Below are positions 7,328-61,414 of a stretch of DNA of 64,000 bases, one piece after another; the stretch's first letter is position 1; every line of letters begins with the position of its first letter. The notes beneath the pieces are model-generated. The model saw nothing but the letters and a program-made list of their open reading frames with translations, made no database searches and was not told where the DNA came from. The position numbers and the translations under genes are program-made. The DNA is from Acidobacteriota bacterium (GTDB lineage: Bacteria > Acidobacteriota > Blastocatellia > Chloracidobacteriales > Chloracidobacteriaceae), in contig JACQXX010000107.1 of NCBI GenBank assembly GCA_016208495.1, positions 1-64,000 of the forward strand. The letters are read 5' to 3'.

Positions 7328-7637
7328 CTCCGTTGCGGAAAGGTCGGATTTCGCCCGGAGGGCGCCGGAAAGTAGCCGGTGTGGAAGCCGGCTTTGCGGC
7401 GCACCCACCGGAATACGGACCGCCAACGGTTCGCGCCCGGATGGGCGCTGGAAGCTTTCATCAGCAAAGTTTCGGTAACCGTTCCATCGTGCCTGGGGTT
7501 TTGATCCAGCGCCCATCCGGGCGCGAGGGAAATGAGCACGAATCCCGGTGGTATGCCCAAAGCGGCAAACCACCGGCTACTATCCAGCGCCCTCCGGGCG
7601 GTGATTGTCAAACTCAAGTGACCTTTCCGCAACGGAG
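7328..7637. mobile_element. MITE-like 310-bp palindromic element, copy 2, with 11-bp target duplication
   Basis: It has the same length and layout as 1123-1432. Its 18-bp terminal inverted repeats (CTCCGTTGCGGAAAGGTC) lie at 7328-7345 and 7620-7637. It is flanked by perfect 11-bp direct repeats, AAAGAAACTCT at 7317-7327 and 7638-7648, the signature of transposition. Against copy 1 the outer stem has lost one base in the left arm (GATGGGCGC to GAGGGCGC) and the matching base in the right arm, which preserves pairing. There is no transposase inside, so it must be mobilised in trans. Confidence 0.88.
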
Positions 7638-19905: not shown

Positions 19906-21230
19906 ATCGAAAACGCGTTCTGATTTTAGGTGCCGCTGGTCGAGATTTTCATAACTTCAATACTGTTTTTCGCAACCACAACGTGTGTGAAGTGGTTGCC
20001 TTTACCGCCACCCAGATTCCAAACATTGATGGTCGAAAATACCCGGCGGAACTGGCTGGGGGATTTTACCCACAAGGCATTCCAATTTACCCGGAAGATG
20101 ATCTCGAACGATTGATAAGCCGCCTCAAAGTTGATGAGGTGGTTTTTTCTTATTCGGACATTGCTCATCAGGATGTCATGCATCTGGCTGCACGTGTGAA
20201 TGCGGCTGGTGCTGATTTCCGGTTGTTGGGCACCAAAGCCACGATGATCAAGTCCACCAAACCGGTAATTTCGGTGTGTGCGGTTCGAACTGGGTGTGGC
20301 AAAAGTCCGGCTTCGCGGCGCATTGTGCAACTCTTGCTTGATGCCGGTTTGAAGGTGGCGGTCATTCGTCACCCGATGCCATATGGCGACCTGGTCAAAC
20401 AGCGGGTGCAACGCTTTACCACCCTTGAAGATCTGGCCGCTCAGGACTGCACGATTGAAGAAATGGAAGAATATGAGCCCCACCTGATCAAAGGTGTGAC
20501 CGTTTTTGCCGGCGTGGACTATGAAGGGATTATCCGGCAGGCCGAAACCGAAGCGGATGTTATTTTGTGGGACGGAGGCAATAACGACTTCTCGTTTTAT
20601 GTTCCGGATCTGGAAATTGTGATTGCCGACCCACATCGCCCAGGCCATGAGTTGACATATTTTCCAGGTGAGGTCAATCTGCGCCGTGCTGATGTGATCA
20701 TTCTCAATAAAATTGACTCCGCGACACCAGAAGGTATTGCGCTGGTTCGTGCCAACATCCGCGCAGTGAATCCAACCGCGATGGTGATTGACGCTGCGAT
20801 GCCGTTGACAGTTGAAAAACCAGAGGCGATCCGCGGCAAACGGGTTTTGGTGGTCGAAGACGGGCCAACTTTAACGCATGGTTCGATGAAGTATGGAGCT
20901 GGCGTTCTGGCGGCTGAAAAGTTTGGTGCCCGCGAAATCATTGATCCACGACCATATGTGGTCGGCAGTCTGGCCGAGACATTTCATCATTATCCGGGAA
21001 TTGGCCGACTGTTGCCGGCCATGGGCTATGGTGCCGACCAGATGCACGATCTGGCCGAAACCATCAACCGGATTGACTGTGATCTGGTACTGATTGCCAC
21101 ACCCATCAATCTCTCGCGGGTGATTGACATCAAACATCCAACGTGCCGAATTGGCTATGAACTCCAGGAAATTGGTTATCCAACGCTAGTAGATGCCTTG
21201 AATCCACTATTGAAATCAATGGTTAGATAG
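19902..21230 (+). CDS. COG2403 GTPase, cyclic 2,3-diphosphoglycerate synthetase-like
   Basis: The product has 442 residues. The N-terminus is a Rossmann-like domain (KRVLILGAAGRDFHNFNTVF). The P-loop SVCAVRTGCGKS is at about residues 127-138, and IILNKIDS at about 265 resembles the NKxD guanine-specificity motif. WDGGNND at about 225 fits the metal-binding region. Relatives are annotated as cyclic 2,3-diphosphoglycerate synthetase from archaeal thermophiles, but in bacteria the substrate is unknown. It overlaps the patatin gene by 4 bp, and a DDAH-like hydrolase follows 130 bp later, beyond a heptamer hairpin. This neighbourhood suggests a role in nitrogen or guanidino metabolism rather than osmolyte synthesis; that is inference. 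Confidence 0.85.
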   Translation: MNRKRVLILGAAGRDFHNFNTVFRNHNVCEVVAFTATQIPNIDGRKYPAELAGGFYPQGIPIYPEDDLERLISRLKVDEVVFSYSDIAHQDVMHLAARVNAAGADFRLLGTKATMIKSTKPVISVCAVRTGCGKSPASRRIVQLLLDAGLKVAVIRHPMPYGDLVKQRVQRFTTLEDLAAQDCTIEEMEEYEPHLIKGVTVFAGVDYEGIIRQAETEADVILWDGGNNDFSFYVPDLEIVIADPHRPGHELTYFPGEVNLRRADVIILNKIDSATPEGIALVRANIRAVNPTAMVIDAAMPLTVEKPEAIRGKRVLVVEDGPTLTHGSMKYGAGVLAAEKFGAREIIDPRPYVVGSLAETFHHYPGIGRLLPAMGYGADQMHDLAETINRIDCDLVLIATPINLSRVIDIKHPTCRIGYELQEIGYPTLVDALNPLLKSMVR

Positions 21231-21352
21231 GGTTCAGGGTTCAGGGTTCAGGGTTCAGGGTTTTAAATTCCTGTCCTGCTGGTCCTTTTTGTCACTTTGG
21301 TCCTTTCGTATTGTCCTGAACCCCAAACCCTGAACCCTGAACCCTGAACCCC
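21229..21352. repeat. TTCAGGG inverted-arm element
   Basis: The left arm is about four GGGTTCA units (21229-21262), the right arm about five TGAACCC units (21314-21352), and between them lies a 50-bp core rich in GTCCTTT words. The transcript would fold into a long hairpin. The right arm ends nine bases before the next ATG. Confidence 0.85.
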
Positions 21353-46276: not shown

Positions 46277-47203
46277 TTGGATACACAAACTGCCTTACTT
46301 ACCACGGATTTACCTGGGATTCCGCTTTTCCGGCGTGGAAAAGTACGGGATGTCTACGATTTGGGCGATACATTGTTGATTGTGGCGACTGACCGGATTT
46401 CAGCCTTTGATTGTGTGATGCCAAACGGCATTCCTGGAAAAGGATGTGTGTTGACCGCGTTGTCACGTTTCTGGTTTGAGCAAATGAAAGACCTGGTGCC
46501 CAATCACGTGCTGACCAGCTCGGTTTCCGACTACCCGGCGCGACTCCAGCCGTTTGCCGATCAGCTCGAAGGGCGCTCCATGCTGGTGCGCAAGACCGAT
46601 TGTTTCCCAGTCGAGTGTGTGGCACGTGGGTATCTGGCTGGATCAGGGTGGAAAGATTACCTGAAAACCGGAAGCGTCTGTGGGATTGAACTTCCATCTG
46701 GCCTGGTTGAGTCAGCCCAACTGCCGGAGCCGATTTTCACACCCGCTACCAAAGCTGAGACCGGGCACGATGAAAATATCAGCGAATCCCGAATGGCTGA
46801 GATTGTGGGTGCTGAAACCACTGCCCAGTTAAAAAATCTGACATTGACACTCTATCGGCGCGCGGCTCAGTATGCTCACGAACGCGGTATCATTTTGTGT
46901 GATACAAAGTTTGAGTTTGGCCTTCTCAATGACCAGATTATCTGGATTGATGAGGCGCTGACACCTGATTCTTCACGCTTCTGGCCGGCTGACGAATACA
47001 TGCCAGGGCAGTCACAGCGGTCGTTTGACAAACAATTTGTGCGTGATTACCTGGAAACCCTTGACTGGAACAAACAACCACCAGCCCCAGCCTTACCTGA
47101 TCAGATTGTTGCTGCCACGCAGGCACGTTATCTCGAAGCCTATGAACGGCTAACCGGGAAACAGTTGTTTTTAGTTGATAAGTCAGTAGTCAGTCGTCAG
47201 TAG
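46277..47203 (+). CDS. purC: Phosphoribosylaminoimidazole-succinocarboxamide synthase
   Basis: The product has 308 residues; the enzyme makes SAICAR from CAIR, Asp and ATP in purine synthesis. Motifs present are [48 protein letters not shown] and LCDTKFEFG, complete for this family of about 300 residues. I place the start at the TTG at 46277 because AAAGGTG lies six bases upstream; in-frame GTGs at 46214 and 46268 are less likely. The last residues (VDKSVVSRQ) and the TAG stop are encoded by the first GTAGTCA units of the adjacent array, so the natural C-terminus may have been replaced. Confidence 0.95.
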
Positions 47204-47937: not shown

Positions 47938-48085
47938 CCAGGGCTGAGGGCTTGGGGCTGAGGGCTGAAGACTTCGGGCTGAAAAATTGGTTTTATTTCA
48001 TCCCTCATCCCTTCAATTGCTCCGAGCTTGCGAGTCTTCAGCCCTCAGCCCTGGCTTTTTCAGCCCGACTTCTTCAGCCCAGAGG
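47938..48085 (+). repeat. GGGCTGA/TCAGCCC palindromic repeat element, copy 3
   Basis: It has the same arms and core as 30617-30771 (shared AAATTGGTTTTATTTCATCCC and GCTCCGAGCTTGCGAGTCTT). It occupies the whole gap between cvpA and the histidine kinase, ending a few bases before the latter's ribosome binding site. Confidence 0.85.
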
Positions 48086-48093
48086 TTTTCCCT

Positions 48094-50370
48094 ATGTGGG
48101 GTCAGCTTGGCATTGCCACCTTACAAATACTCATCACCTTGAGCACGATTCTGGCCTTCCATTACTGGAGGAAGAGCTTTGGGCTTGGTCCGTTGTATAT
48201 TGCATTGGGTGGTTTGGAATTATTTGTGACGTTTGTCACCGCCCTGTGGATCAAGATTGATTTACCAAATGAATTGGTCTTTGTGACCGGGTCAACCAGT
48301 TTTTTTGTGGTTGGGTTTACAGCGTTGCTTCTGGTGTATTTGTGCGAAGGCACATTGCAGGCGCGCAACCTGATTTTTTCACTCATTGGATTGCAGGCGT
48401 GTCATATTCTCTGGCGGTTACTGGTTCTGGCCCAGCTTCTGGCAAGTGGCGGCGGGGGGCTTGGCGGAGCAATTCCAACTGCTCTCTTCAGCCCGGATTT
48501 TCGGCTCAATGCGGCTTCGGCTGTGGCTCGGATTGTCACCCTGTTTATCTTTGTCATCTTTTATCAGTGGCTTTCAAACCGGTTTTCAAGCTGGCCCATG
48601 GTTGTGAAAATTTTTGCCAGCCTGCTCACCTCACTGGTCCTGGACGACCTGATTTTTTTCACCTTGGGAATGATCGAATCACCACAGTTCGTGTCAAACC
48701 TGCTCGGAAGTGTTTTGAGCCGTCCGTTCAGTGTCATTTTAATCAGTCCCGTGCTGGCATTTTATTTACAGCTTCCGCAGGTGTCCTATCGAACCACTGA
48801 AGACATTCGGGATCCAATGGATATCCTGCAGAGCAATGCGCTTTTGCAGGCATCACTGGCCGAATCAGAGAAGCGATATGAAAACCTGTTTGAGAATGCC
48901 AATGAACTGATTCTGGTCGTTGAACCAGTGACGGGTTGTATTCTGGATGCCAATCGCCATACTTTTGAGGAGCTTTCCTACAGCCGCGACGAACTTCTCA
49001 CCCGAACCGTGTTTGATTTGTATCCAGCGGAAGATCATCCGGCCATCAAAAAACGGTTAAATCCGCTTCCCGCCCACGAACACTATGCTGACTCAATGGA
49101 CGCCGTGGTGTTATGCAAAGACCGAAGCCATCGTTCGGTTGCCATTCGGGTCTATGATGCCACGCTGGTGGGAAAGCCGGTACTGGTCTTTTTGATGCGG
49201 GATATTACCGAGCGCCAGCAGGCCCTCGAAGGATTGCGACAGGCAAACCGCCTCAAAGATGAATTTCTCCAAAACATCTCGCACGAACTCCGAACACCAC
49301 TCTGCGCCATTGTTGGCTGGAGCGATTTAATTGCTTCGGGTGTGTTGACCACTGAGCAACAAACCACCGGAAATGAACAGATTCGGTCTTCTTCTGAGCA
49401 ATTGCTGCAATTGATCAATGATTTGCTGGATGTGGCCCACATGGAACGGGGCATTATGAATCTGGACATTGAACTGGCGGAAATTAACGAGCCGGTTCAA
49501 AAAGCCTTTGAGATTTTTGAATTTGCGGCCAAAAACAAAGGCATCACGTTTACCCTTAATTTAGAGCCGAATCTCCCACTGCTTCAGCAGGACGTGGTCC
49601 GGATTCAACAGGTTGTGACCAATCTGCTCTCAAATGCCATCAAGTTTACTCCTGACGGCGGTCAGGTAACGGTCTCGGTTCAATCCATTGGGCGCGAAAT
49701 TGAAATCAGCGTCGCTGATACCGGTGTCGGTATTTCACCATCTGCCTTACCCTATATTTTTGAAGGATTTCGACAAGGTGATGGGTCGGCCACCCGTCGT
49801 TTTGGTGGGACAGGTGTTGGACTGGCACTGGTCAAATCGCTGATTGAGCTGCATGGTGGTTCTATTTCAGTCGAAAGCGAAGTCAAACACGGAAGCACCT
49901 TCCGGGTTCGGTTGCCGATCCCACCTCAACCAGTCTCTGGGAGGCGACGGATTACTGGCAATTTCCCGTCTTTGGATGAGCGATCTTCAGCTCCGCCGGA
50001 TGGAGCCCAGGTATTGATTATTGATCATGACCGGGCTTTGCTTGACCTGGCTGGCGCCATGGTGCGCAGTGCCGGGTACAAGGTCGTTTTGGCAACAACC
50101 CTCGAATCCGCCAAAGCCAAGCTCAAAGATGTCTGGCCAACGGTTGTTTTGATAGAGGTGTCATCAGTAATGGAGAGTGAATCACTTCTGGCCTCATTGC
50201 ATTCGATTTGGGTTTTACAATCAGCTAAAGTCATTGCGATGACCACGTCAACCAATCTTCAGGACAAAGAGACTTTTTTGAAACAAGGCTTTGCTGAATA
50301 CTTGTCAAAACCATTCAAAAAAGACCAGTTGGTTGCGGTGGTTCGATATTTTTTCACGGCTGAGCCGTAA
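48094..50370 (+). CDS. Hybrid membrane histidine kinase with a degenerate receiver
   Basis: The product has 758 residues from the ATG at 48094 (AGAGG upstream). Six to seven transmembrane helices (residues of about 5-235) form an unrecognised sensor. They are followed by a PAS domain (about 262-390, YENLFENANELILVVEP), the HisKA box NISHELRTPL with phospho-His at about 417, and an ATPase domain with QVVTNLLSNAIKFTPDGG, ADTGVGIS and FGGTGVGLAL. These kinase parts are intact. The C-terminal receiver (about 640-755) has the acidic pocket IIDHD and the Lys of YLSKPF. At the phospho-acceptor position it reads VVLIEVSS, that is Glu instead of Asp, so it probably cannot be phosphorylated. Confidence 0.92.
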   Translation: MWGQLGIATLQILITLSTILAFHYWRKSFGLGPLYIALGGLELFVTFVTALWIKIDLPNELVFVTGSTSFFVVGFTALLLVYLCEGTLQARNLIFSLIGLQACHILWRLLVLAQLLASGGGGLGGAIPTALFSPDFRLNAASAVARIVTLFIFVIFYQWLSNRFSSWPMVVKIFASLLTSLVLDDLIFFTLGMIESPQFVSNLLGSVLSRPFSVILISPVLAFYLQLPQVSYRTTEDIRDPMDILQSNALLQASLAESEKRYENLFENANELILVVEPVTGCILDANRHTFEELSYSRDELLTRTVFDLYPAEDHPAIKKRLNPLPAHEHYADSMDAVVLCKDRSHRSVAIRVYDATLVGKPVLVFLMRDITERQQALEGLRQANRLKDEFLQNISHELRTPLCAIVGWSDLIASGVLTTEQQTTGNEQIRSSSEQLLQLINDLLDVAHMERGIMNLDIELAEINEPVQKAFEIFEFAAKNKGITFTLNLEPNLPLLQQDVVRIQQVVTNLLSNAIKFTPDGGQVTVSVQSIGREIEISVADTGVGISPSALPYIFEGFRQGDGSATRRFGGTGVGLALVKSLIELHGGSISVESEVKHGSTFRVRLPIPPQPVSGRRRITGNFPSLDERSSAPPDGAQVLIIDHDRALLDLAGAMVRSAGYKVVLATTLESAKAKLKDVWPTVVLIEVSSVMESESLLASLHSIWVLQSAKVIAMTTSTNLQDKETFLKQGFAEYLSKPFKKDQLVAVVRYFFTAEP

Positions 50371-50798
50371 CTTTTGATTTTTTTAACTCCCCCGCGATTC
50401 ATGGAAATGTAACCTCCACCGGTTAGGCTATAAGCGCCAGGATAAGGAAACAGAGTCCAATCTGGACAAGAGGGACAGGGCGACAGGGAGAAAAAGCAAA
50501 TGGTCGCATTCTCCCGCTCTCAATCGGAACTCATTCAAACCGACAACCCCCGTGAATTGTCTCCTTGTCTCCCATCTCCGGGTCCAGATCAGATGTTGTC
50601 CTCTTATCCTGGCGCTTATGGCCGGTTAGGCTGACAGGTTTGAATTCAAAGGCATGGGTGCACTGTGTCTTGCAAACCAAAAAAGAATGAGAAATTTGGG
50701 TTCAGCATCAAGCGCGACTGAATTTTCAGTGACAGTGAGCTTACAGGTTCGCTACTCTCCCAGCTTGATTCGCTCATATCCGCAGGAAAGGAAATTGT
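50371..50798. other. Gene-free gap containing a TIR element
   Basis: No coding frame is credible here. The 192-bp element at 50430-50621 fills most of it; the remainder before the DUF1611 gene contains no obvious promoter. Confidence 0.5.
50430..50621. mobile_element. MITE-like element with ATAAGCGCCAGGATAAG termini
   Basis: Perfect 17-bp inverted repeats stand at 50430-50446 and 50603-50619. The flanks carry the 11-bp direct repeat CCGGTTAGGCT (50419-50429 and 50622-50632, two bases after the right terminus), consistent with target duplication. The inside is not coding and unlike the 310-bp family. A lone terminus of the same sequence occurs at 55244-55260. Confidence 0.78.
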
Positions 50799-51971
50799 AT
50801 GGATGGAACAGCACTGGTTTTATGTGAAGGTGCTTTTGGAACCCCGGCTGGGAAAACCGCGCACGGATTGATTCGATTTACAGAGCGCTACCAGATTCTG
50901 GGTATTCTCGATAGCCAGCAGGCGGGAAAAGATTCAGGTGACGTCCTGGATGGAAAACCGAATGGCATTCCGATTTTTGCTTCGTTACAAGAAGCAGTTG
51001 AAACTTTGGGCACACCGCCCAAATACCTGGTGGTCGGGCAATCTTCACCGACCGGAGGACTTTTGCCCGGCGGGCGAAATATTATTCGGCAGGCGATTAA
51101 TCTCGGTATGAACATTGACAGCGGGTTGCGTCAGTTTTTGACCGAAGACGCTGACTTGCCTGGGCTGGCTCAGTTGCGCGGCATTAGCATCCGGGACGTC
51201 CGGAAGCCCAAAGATCCACGCCAGTTACACCTCTATTCAGGAAAGATCAGCCAGGTTGATTGTGTCAAGATTGCCGTGCTCGGGACTGATTCGCTGGTTG
51301 GAAAGCGAACCACGGCCATCAATCTTCGCCAGGGACTCCGCCATGTGGGGCTCAAGACATTTCTGGTCGGTACGGGACAAACGTCATGGCTGCAGGGAAT
51401 GAAATATTGTGTGATTACTGACACCATGATGAGCCACTATCTGACAGGCGAAATTGAAGATACCGTCTATCAGGCGTACGTGAACGAACAACCGGATGTG
51501 ATTTTGCTCGAAGGGCAGGGAAGTCTCACTGATCCGCTTCGACCCGGAGGGCTCGAACTCCTCTGTGCCGCCCGTCCAGATGCAATCATTGTTCAGCACG
51601 CCCCGAAACGAAAATTTCACACCCAGGCGCTCAACCAGGCCTTGATTCCGCTCAAAGATGAAATCAAGGTGATTGAATTGCTCACCCAAAAACCCGTCAT
51701 CGCCATCACTTTAAATCACGAAGGGATGACGGATGACGAAATTCAGAGTTTGATTGGGGAGTATGAAATTGAGTACCGGGTGCCAACTCTGGATGTGCTC
51801 AAAGAAGGTCCCGCCCGACTGGTCAGCACGGTTCTGCATCGCTTTCCAGAACTGGTTGAAACAATTCACAAAAAGCGAGGGGAGGCACACGACGATGAGT
51901 CGTCACCGATTAACCGAGGAACAAGTCCTTTTATCACTGGTAAATTCCCCGCTGTGGGAACGGCAGAATAA
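50799..51971 (+). CDS. DUF1611 family P-loop protein (DgcN-like)
   Basis: The product has 390 residues from an ATG with AGGAAAGGA upstream. The N-terminal Rossmann-like part holds LVLCEGAFGTPAGKTAHGLI. The C-terminal part carries the P-loop VLGTDSLVGKRTTA at about residues 160-173, LVGTGQTSW and PDVILLEGQGSL, all characteristic of DUF1611. Members are proposed to act in D-glutamate or dipeptide metabolism, but no epimerase gene is adjacent here. The last 25 or so residues overlap the pterin dehydratase gene by 77 bp in another frame and look non-native. Confidence 0.88.
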   Translation: MDGTALVLCEGAFGTPAGKTAHGLIRFTERYQILGILDSQQAGKDSGDVLDGKPNGIPIFASLQEAVETLGTPPKYLVVGQSSPTGGLLPGGRNIIRQAINLGMNIDSGLRQFLTEDADLPGLAQLRGISIRDVRKPKDPRQLHLYSGKISQVDCVKIAVLGTDSLVGKRTTAINLRQGLRHVGLKTFLVGTGQTSWLQGMKYCVITDTMMSHYLTGEIEDTVYQAYVNEQPDVILLEGQGSLTDPLRPGGLELLCAARPDAIIVQHAPKRKFHTQALNQALIPLKDEIKVIELLTQKPVIAITLNHEGMTDDEIQSLIGEYEIEYRVPTLDVLKEGPARLVSTVLHRFPELVETIHKKRGEAHDDESSPINRGTSPFITGKFPAVGTAE

Positions 51972-52727: not shown

Positions 52728-52747
52728 AATGAAGGATGAAGAAACCA

Positions 52748-53021
52748 TTTAGTGGTTAGTGATTAGTGATTAGTGGTTAGAAATCAATACTTTCGAAGAA
52801 GAATCAGGCACCAGTCACCACGCACCAGGAACCAAGGGCGTCCTTTCACATGCAGGTTTTTTGATTTCATCCCGGAGGGAATGACCAGGTTCCCAGGGCT
52901 CGAAGACTCGCTCTGGGCTACGAGCCGGCGTGGGAGTTTCTGGACTGAGAACCAAAAACGGCTTCAACTCTTAGCTGGCACCACTAACCACTAACCACTA
53001 ACCACTAACCACTAACCACTT
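52748..53021. repeat. GTTAGTG inverted arms enclosing a repeat fragment
   Basis: GTTAGTG-type units at 52748-52779 and CACTAAC units at 52980-53021 enclose about 200 bp. The left core has the GAAATCAATACTTTC phrase seen at 40861 and 61337. The right end has GGCTTCAACTCTTAGCTGGCA, matching the terminus of the element at 61065-61320. Confidence 0.8.
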
Positions 53022-53042
53022 TCTTCATGCTCAATTCTTCAT

Positions 53043-54332
53043 TCAACTTCGCTCTATTTCCAGCTTTAGGAAATGCGTTGCGCAGGAAATGCACGGGTCA
53101 TAGTTGCGGATTGCCTGCTCGCATTGCCAGGTGAGGTCTTTGGTTGGCAGGGTCAGGTTTCGGGAGATATACACTTTCAAATCCTGCTCGATGGATTTTT
53201 GGTTCTGTGAGGTCGGCGGGATGATTCGAGCGTCGGTGATAAGTCCTTCCTCATCAACTGAATAGCGGTGATACAGGATGCCGCGCGGGGCTTCGGTACA
53301 ACCATGTCCGGTGCCCGCCACCGGGTGAACTTCGACTGATGGACGATCTGGGAGTTCATAGTTGTCAATGATCCGGATGGCTTCATCGTAGGCATAGAGA
53401 AGTTCAACCCCACGGATCACAATGCTCAAAAACGGATTCAGGCAGGGGACTGGGAGACCCACTTCGCGGGCGGCTTCTTGAGCGAGTGGCGACAGGCGAT
53501 CAAAATTGAGGCTAAAGCGAGCCTGGGGACCGACACAGTAGGCGCCCCGTTCGCGCAACCGGCAGTGGAGCGCGTTTGAGTGCGCGACGTGTTCTTCAAC
53601 AAAATGGGTATGAAAGTCCTGGACGGCACTATCAAGCCCGGCGGTTGAAACCAGTCGGCCTTCATTAAATGGGTATTCATCCGGATGGCGAAGTGCCACA
53701 AATTCATAGTCTTTCTCAAAATCCGGGATAGGGAGCTGTTTTAACCACCCAACAGTCTTCAGTGTTTCATCACGTCCAATCAGCAGTTTTTCCCGAAGTT
53801 CGCGAAGTTCCCGTTTCGATGGAACCTTATAAAAGCCGCCGACTTTGACATTGATCGGATGAATTTCCCGTCCGCCAACCAGCCTGACGATGTCATTGCC
53901 CCACTTTTTGATCTGCAACCCGCGTTGCACAATTTCCGGGTGGTCTTTGGCCATCTGAATGGCGTCTTCGTACCCCAGAAAATCAGGCGCGTGGAGCATA
54001 AACATATGCAGGGCATGGCTTTCGATCCATTCACCACAATAAATCAGGCGACGCAGTGCCCGGAGTTGCCCGGTTACTTTGATTCCAAAGGCATCCTCGA
54101 TGGCGTGAATGGCGCTCATCTGATAGGCAATCGGGCAAATACCGCAAATGCGGGCGGTAATGTCGGGTGCTTCCTGATAGCCACGTCCACGCAGAAACGC
54201 TTCAAAAAAGCGAGGTGGTTCAAAAATCTTGAACTGGATGTCAGTGACCTGGTCGCCCGCAATTTTGACAAACAGGGCGCCTTCGCCCTCAACTCGTGCC
54301 AGATAATCAACCTTGATTGTCTTTTTCATCAT
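53043..54332 (-). CDS. hyhL: [NiFe]-hydrogenase large subunit, group 3b type
   Basis: The product has 429 residues. The start is one of two adjacent ATGs (54332 or 54329) with AAGGAGAG upstream; it overlaps hyhS by 26 bp. The nickel-binding L1 motif [15 protein letters not shown] (about residue 60) and L2 motif [13 protein letters not shown] near the end supply all four Cys. Only eight residues follow the His at the usual processing site. RVEGEG near residue 13 is also conserved. With HyhBGS it forms a soluble bidirectional NADP-linked hydrogenase (sulfhydrogenase type), which exchanges electrons between H2 and NADP. Confidence 0.94.
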
Positions 54333-55101: not shown

Positions 55102-55402
55102 GGTGATGCCTTTCTTGGAAGCCGGGTTCCGGGTTCCGGGTTCCGGGTTCCGGGTTCCGGGTTCCGGGTTTTCAAATTTATGCCCCTTATGTCCTTTATG
55201 TCCTTATATGTCCTTTTTCCTAAACCCTGACCCCTGACCCCCATAAGCGCCAGGATAAGAAACCCTGTGTCCTTTCCGTTGGCATTGAACGACGTTCTTG
55301 TTGGGTTTGGGTCTCGTCCTGGCCGTGACCGTAGGCTTCGCACCACGGCTATTGAACAACGACCCTGCGGGCCTCAAACGCCCCTGACCCCTGACCCCTG
55401 AT
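55102..55402. repeat. Repeat spacer between hyhG and hyhS
   Basis: It contains about seven GGTTCCG heptamers (55121-55170), GTCCTTTATG words, CCCCTGACC-type units at both ends, and a single ATAAGCGCCAGGATAAG terminus (55244-55260). The unique core between the terminus and 55380 is not coding. Confidence 0.8.
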
Positions 55403-56750: not shown

Positions 56751-57103
56751 TAATGACAAGGTGACTGGGTGACAAGGTGACAAGGTGACAAGGTGACAAG
56801 GTGACAAGGTGACAAGGTGACAGGGTGACAGGGTGACAGGGTGACAGGGTGACAAGGTGACAAGCTGACAGGGTGACAGAGTGACAAGGTGACAGAGTGA
56901 CAAAATAATAAATACCTTGCCATAAGTTTTCTAAGATATTGAACTTAGTAAGTGTTTGATTTTTCTCCGTGGTTTCCGTTGTTAAATGTCTGGAATGTTT
57001 CGGTAAAGGACTTACTTATTCACCCTGTCACCTTGTCATTTGTCACCTTGTCATCTGGTCATCCAGTCACCTGGTCACCTTGTCATTTGTCACCTTGTCA
57101 TCC
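56751..57103. repeat. GTGACAAG octamer inverted-arm element
   Basis: The left arm is about 18 GTGACAAG/GTGACAGG units (56753-56904). The right arm is about nine CTTGTCAC-type units (57019-57103). They surround a 115-bp AT-rich core. It is the longest array in the window. The right arm includes the hyhB stop codon, so it lies between hyhB and the rest of the locus. Confidence 0.9.
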
Positions 57104-60970: not shown

Positions 60971-61009
60971 AGAGCAACCCTCTCTTTGAATGAAGAATGA
61001 AGAACCCAT

Positions 61010-61400
61010 TGAGTGGTTAGTGGTTAGTGGTTAGTGGTTAGTGGCTAGTGGTTAGTGATTAGTGATGCAAATTAAGAGTTGAAAAAAGACTGGTTTTGAA
61101 TCCGCGAAGCGGGTGGCATTCTTCAAGCCTCGGGTGCAATGAGCGTCAGCGAATGAAATCCGTGGCCTTCATCACCGGTCAGCGTGGCCTGGGCGACGGC
61201 TGAATTCATCGCCACCGATTTTGTTTTCCACGGATTCCGCTCCGCTCCACCCGAGGCTTTCACTCTTTCGCCCAGTTCCTGGGCTGAAATCCCAAAACCG
61301 TTTCAACTCTTAACTGGCATTAGTGGTTAGTGGTTAGAAGTCAATACCTTCCAAGAATCAAGAACTAACCACTAACCACTAACCACTAACCACTAACCAC
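61010..61400. repeat. GTTAGTG arrays flanking a TIR element
   Basis: GTTAGTG-type units (61010-61062) precede an element with 20-bp imperfect inverted termini (ATGCAAATTAAGAGTTGAAA at 61065-61084; complement at 61301-61320). After it come GTTAGTG units, the core GAAGTCAATACCTTCCAAGAA and five CACTAAC units up to 61400. No gene is seen in the 440-bp gap. Confidence 0.85.
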
Positions 61401-61414
61401 ATTCTCAGTTCTTG

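Follow-up and report, generated by a model that had tools for sequence, protein, structure and literature searches.

A 192-bp MITE of a large repeat family in an Acidobacteriota genome and its probable IS4-family mover

The locus and the boundaries of the element

The stretch of DNA analysed here (the window, 64,000 nucleotides, C107:1-64000) belongs to a genome of 8.38 Mb in 177 contigs. Between two plus-strand open reading frames, 48028-50370 (a putative sensor kinase with a receiver domain, as judged by eye) and 50799-51971, lies a 192-bp non-coding element that occupies positions 50429-50620 (Table 1). No ORF of at least 60 amino acids overlaps it, and an Rfam search of the element gave no match to an RNA family. 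Its inverted arms extend over 42 nt at 79% identity, and as DNA it is predicted to fold into a hairpin-like structure (z -6.1), none of 200 shuffled sequences being as stable.

Table 1. Coordinates of the window element, its flanks and a truncated relative
Feature	Position in window	Strand	Remarks
Left 11-bp target-site duplication, ACCGGTTAGGC	50418-50428	.	10/11 identical to 50621-50631
Left 18-bp terminal inverted repeat, TATAAGCGCCAGGATAAG, with T for the outer C	50429-50446	+	17/18 to family consensus CATAAGCGCCAGGATAAG
Core type A, non-coding	50447-50602	+	Imperfect arms continue into it and form a hairpin
Right 18-bp terminal inverted repeat, identical to the consensus	50603-50620	-	Family consensus CATAAGCGCCAGGATAAG
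Right 11-bp target-site duplication, GCCGGTTAGGC	50621-50631	.	10/11 to the left copy; 11 bp is the family-wide peak
Second, truncated member, core type B	55242 to about 55382-55400	+	Has the exact left terminus but lacks the right one; right limit approximate

A preliminary description of this DNA had assigned the element 17-bp termini, which are exact at 50430-50446 and 50603-50619; the true terminus, however, is 18 bp long, and the outer C/G belongs to the element. Among the first 28 pairs of ends in the genome, the base outside the 17-mer was C at 25/28 left ends and G at 25/28 right ends, from which it follows that the terminus is CATAAGCGCCAGGATAAG; across both ends of 84 elements the outer C/G is kept in 92%. 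The 11-bp repeat reported in the flanks, CCGGTTAGGCT, is indeed present twice, at 50419-50429 and 50622-50632. The two-base offset of its right copy, which had seemed to call for an explanation, is seen with 17-bp ends and is gone with the 18-bp boundary (10/11), since it arose from the C-to-T change at the outermost left base, an A/G mismatch and a chance T after the right duplication. Read in this register, the duplication is [A/G]CCGGTTAGGC, its first base being the sole difference between the two sides.

Of 63500 window positions, this site is the only one at which a 192-bp span has an exact 11-bp direct repeat on its two sides, to within 2 bp, and just one other 192-bp span of the window has inverted ends matching at 17/18, a low-complexity repeat at 47184. 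The termini and flank repeat of the window copy are therefore beyond chance. A mutated left terminal base and a diverged core mark this copy as apparently old and probably silent. For the truncated member at 55242, no partner terminus was found within 700 bp; CCCTGACCCC-type repeats flank this member on both sides.

In a genome of the sister genus (G001), both flanking genes are present in order (downstream protein at 67% identity, upstream one also matching). The syntenic gap has no such terminus, and the whole genome has 0 forward and 0 reverse sites for the 18-mer. As far as such a comparison of sequences goes, the gap shows absence of the element and not an exact empty site, since it cannot be aligned.

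The repeat family in the host genome

With the 17-mer terminus and up to two mismatches, 307 sites were detected in the genome versus 0 for a reversed control pattern. The other copies that the preliminary description had proposed to look for are represented, with the 18-mer and up to two mismatches, by 161 + 140 = 301 end sites. In the first 28 pairs, flank identity was raised at length 11 only (mean 0.679 vs 0.322 for swapped flanks), and 13/28 flanks agreed at 10/11 or better vs 0 in the swapped control. Addition of 75 further stretches gave 87 left-right pairings, or 84 after three outer nested pairs (L011, L020, L049) had been dropped; core clustering with nested elements kept in merges all 87, and the counts rest on the 84. 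These 84 elements are a non-random sample, made up of best BLAST matches and exact termini on contigs C2-C91, and solo termini (24 rows, some of them one site in two loci) were excluded from the duplication counts.

Family members are non-coding and 135-315 bp long, and at least three different cores were found behind identical 18-bp ends in this one genome: type A, which is that of the window copy (n = 46, median 193 bp), type B (n = 34, 157 bp), and type C, which is distantly similar to B (n = 4, 157 bp). In every core type, flank identity peaked at n = 11 only, with means of 0.715 (A), 0.674 (B) and 0.773 (C) vs 0.348 in the control, which demonstrates that the duplication is exactly 11 bp across the family. 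Flanks matching at 10/11 or better were observed in 22/46, 13/34 and 3/4 elements of types A, B and C, respectively, vs 1% of the swapped-flank control. Taken together, 20/84 flanks were perfect, 38/84 reached at least 10/11 and 46/84 at least 9/11, while 38/84 fell below 9/11, as expected of old copies, although this is no proof of age. Conservation per position of the 18-bp end was 86-99%, whereas the mean pairwise identity of whole elements was 79% (A) and 87% (B), a contrast that is partly due to selection of the elements by their ends. The most similar pairs reached 96% (A) and 98% (B), and the spread of the family was thus not all recent.

Bacterial MITEs are short non-coding elements with inverted ends, a target duplication and many copies. 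The initial reading of the window element as a MITE agrees with all that was found, that is, a short non-coding sequence with 18-bp inverted ends, many dispersed copies and an 11-bp target duplication. As an instance of short protein-less jumping DNA it is good but ordinary, and its kind is well known, although this member is new; unlike bacterial MITEs in general, several different cores are here carried on one 18-bp end in one genome. In the literature on MITEs, IS231/IS4, MIC231 and Acidobacteria, covered mostly outside subscription journals, no title points to this element.

A survey of the class with the 18-mer (up to two mismatches) gave any match in 27/162 genomes, and matching genomes other than the host had one or two sites each, approximately the level of the reversed control. 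The repeat population is therefore large as well as lineage-restricted, with 301 end sites here and a background level in the 161 other genomes of the class. In addition, the exact terminus was scanned over species genomes, a set outside which the host genome and its close relatives may lie. Eleven stretches were returned, 10 of which were isolated single exact matches, and L131 alone among the 11 looks like a true relative.

The probable partner insertion sequence and IS4-family elements of the class

L131 (JACQYI010000074.1) is a 3.9-kb groundwater contig of a MAG filed as cyanobacterial (Oscillatoriophycideae), and it holds the right half of core B. It also has a second terminus, beyond which the contig continues for 123 bp of A+T-rich DNA and then stops. 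In the host genome, these 123 bp and the terminus recur at 100% identity where contigs C105 and C166 break off, in both cases about 140 bp inside the left end of an insertion sequence; positions 3768-3908 of L131 are 100% identical to this left end. The L131 contig is possibly mis-binned, and the right end of the insertion sequence is absent from the remainder of its genome.

In the host genome, the right end is found at the tips of C84, C104 and C98, the last of which reaches 34 bp further. The insertion-sequence ends carry the same 18-bp terminus as the MITEs, and the copies are 99-100% identical over the five contig tips. The genome search proposed in the preliminary description, for an insertion sequence bearing these termini, has thus located one, by its ends only. 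With three right and two left ends lying at contig tips, the insertion sequence appears to be multicopy and to have been collapsed in assembly; the partner has been invisible, it seems, because such an element broke the assembly. The near-identity of the copies suggests that it may have been active recently. The 11-mers beside the left end in C105 and the right end in C98 are both GGGCTGAGGGC, which may be the duplication of one copy and is also a common array sequence. Past the 18-bp ends, the MITEs have little in common with the insertion sequence, and so they are not simple deletions of the one seen here. In stretches as long as 4.5 kb, the solo termini showed no partner terminus, except for a weak 5-mismatch pairing in L103.

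The right end encodes the C-terminal 42 residues of a protein (...SADQVQVLAERPRRRRKLQTLPDEVIAFLTPGVNSQSKALAL), with a stop and then the terminus about 25-30 bp on. The middle of the insertion sequence is missing from the assembly, which places the candidate transposase body and its catalytic residues outside the visible sequence. Searches with the C-terminal fragment gave no convincing match in the rest of the phylum (395 genomes), none in NCBIfam and Pfam, none in viral contigs, and none in plasmids (protein and DNA) beyond one weak Streptomyces match of a 31-residue version. A search of the host genome for the IS4 transposase family returned none above the cut-off; L140, with an E of 0.1 in this search and no Pfam match, was rejected as the partner. 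Both DDE_Tnp_1 genes of the genome (L031 and L032) were also rejected, neither having these ends; L031 matches DDE_Tnp_1_3, and the ends of L032 resemble TAGGGTAAACGCATCTTAA.

Relatives were sought in the class with the NCBIfam IS4 model, which matched 68/162 genomes, and 30 loci were taken. One of them, L178, contains a complete IS4-family element of 1435 bp (400-1834), with 18-bp ends CATACGCGCCAAGTTAAG that agree with CATAAGCGCCAGGATAAG at 15/18 and a single 443-aa ORF that matches PF01609 and NF033592 (IS4), the latter at 111.3 bits against a cut-off of 115. Its YREK signature is YRVRWHIELYIKCLK, i.e., Y(2)R(3)E(6)K. L178 was also the best match of the 42-residue fragment among 91 long frames in the 30 loci (score 53), a modest resemblance that 1/300 shuffled queries equalled. 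Two separate leads, the similarity of the ends and the match of the C-terminus, thus meet in one locus. The flanks of the L178 element agree at 6/11, with no matching duplication; both are near GGGN5CCC (AGGGGTAACCC and GGGAAATACCC), yet they differ between the two sides, as recombination of two copies might leave them. Another IS4-family element of the class, L173, has ends CATGCGCATCAGGCTAAG (13/18).

According to the available part of PMC2266710, IS231 has ends of the form CAT-------AA--TAA--- and a duplication of 10-12 bp, reports of IS231 proper being almost confined to the Bacillus cereus group, while ISH8 has ends of the form CAT-----------T----- and a duplication of 10 bp. Compared with the patterns in that part of the source, the ends described here fit ISH8 at CAT and T15, and IS231 at CAT, A11, T15, A16 and A17, with A12 unmatched (G at 12); the duplication of the MITEs with the same ends is 11 bp, vs 10-12 bp and 10 bp in IS231 and ISH8, respectively (PMC2266710). 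The host differs from both in that its terminus is 18 bp and its own transposase body was not recovered. The single ORF and the YREK signature are shared with the IS4 family as features of the class relative L178.

MIC231 and IS231-related cassettes are transposase-less stretches of DNA between IS231-type ends that are moved in trans and carry passenger genes. The present elements resemble them in having no transposase gene between IS4-type ends, and differ in their short non-coding interior and high copy number. We infer that the insertion sequence is the autonomous partner of the MITEs and that its protein is an active IS4 transposase moving them in trans. Most likely the element is moved by a distinct insertion sequence of the IS4 kind, of which only part is assembled, and we would describe the element, with a probability of roughly 0.85, as a non-autonomous 192-bp MITE moved by the DDE transposase of a separate IS4-family (IS231/ISH8-type) insertion sequence. 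This transposase would recognise the 18-bp ends, excise the element and insert it at a staggered cut of 11 bp, whereby 11 bp of the target would be duplicated. An IS4-like origin had earlier been proposed because duplications of 10-13 bp are typical of IS4-like elements, and, on comparative grounds, the assignment of the predicted mover to IS4 appears well supported by the 11-bp duplication, the partner ends and the L178 relative. A large repeat population would thereby be tied to a definite transposase family, with its true boundaries and duplication length fixed.

Alternative readings and target preference

The window also holds a 310-bp family, placed by its terminal 18-mers at 1123-1432 and 7328-7637, and the preliminary description had supposed that a single transposase group moves this family and that of the 192-bp element. 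One of the two copies (7328-7637) has a perfect 11/11 duplication with AAAGAAACTCT on both sides; the other lies within an ATTCTTC array, and its flanks do not match in register. Equal duplication length, however, would point to related enzymes at most. The ends of the 310-bp family, CTCCGTTGCGGAAAGGTC (short form CTCCGTTGCGG), are unrelated to CATAAGCGCCAGGATAAG, as the same description had recognised, and their 5'-CT is at odds with those IS4 subgroups for which Table 1 of PMC2266710, in the part of that source available, gives 10-13 bp duplications. Ends so different speak for another enzyme in the case of the 310-bp family, and a transposase group common to both is improbable.

Spread as REP/REPIN-type palindromes by a RAYT (Y1 tyrosine transposase), without target duplication, would be in line with the many hairpin-forming copies, the intergenic position of the window copy and a stem-loop-like motif read by eye in core B. 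REP/REPIN elements with RAYT are not known to make a target-site duplication, whereas the family here shows clear 11-bp duplications in all core types and has discrete 18-bp ends in common with an insertion sequence, which renders this origin very improbable. It is just as hard to believe that the flank repeats are simply part of heptanucleotide arrays native to the genome (of the GGGCTGA kind), for, although several insertion sites lie inside such arrays and swapped flanks occasionally reach 10/11, real pairs do so far more often and solely at n = 11, and many duplications have a sequence other than that of the heptads (CCTCGGTAACC, ACTTCACAGGA, TCCCCCAGAAC), the window copy's among them.

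Under the preferred reading of an IS4-type mover, the target itself may be considered. The symmetrised consensus of the 46 sites with at least 9/11 is TNA|GSSCTNAGSSC|TNA, which has a period of 7, and arrays of the GGGCTGA type, common in this genome, satisfy it. Mean 7-bp self-identity was 0.42 at the sites vs 0.26 in the window, and in 26 low-periodicity sites the outer GC and T.A positions remain, albeit weaker. The target-motif score overstates the preference because it was fitted on the same sites. IS231A prefers GGG(N)5CCC. In the available part of PMC2266710, IS231 is described only as inserting with specificity. It is possible, at somewhat less than even odds, that one IS4-type transposase amplified at least three short cores with little in common beyond its 18-bp ends, and that the heptanucleotide arrays, by satisfying its preference for the 7-bp-periodic palindrome TNAGSSCTNAGSSCTNA, serve as landing pads and guide the elements to intergenic DNA. 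If true, a preference for heptad arrays would bear on how such elements avoid genes.

Short intergenic tandem arrays of 7-8 bp units (AGTGGTT, AGGGTTC, TGACAAGG) are located in the window at 52728-53043, 56752-57087, 61000-61413 and 21229-21351, where they form inverted pairs with a few hundred bases between the two members.
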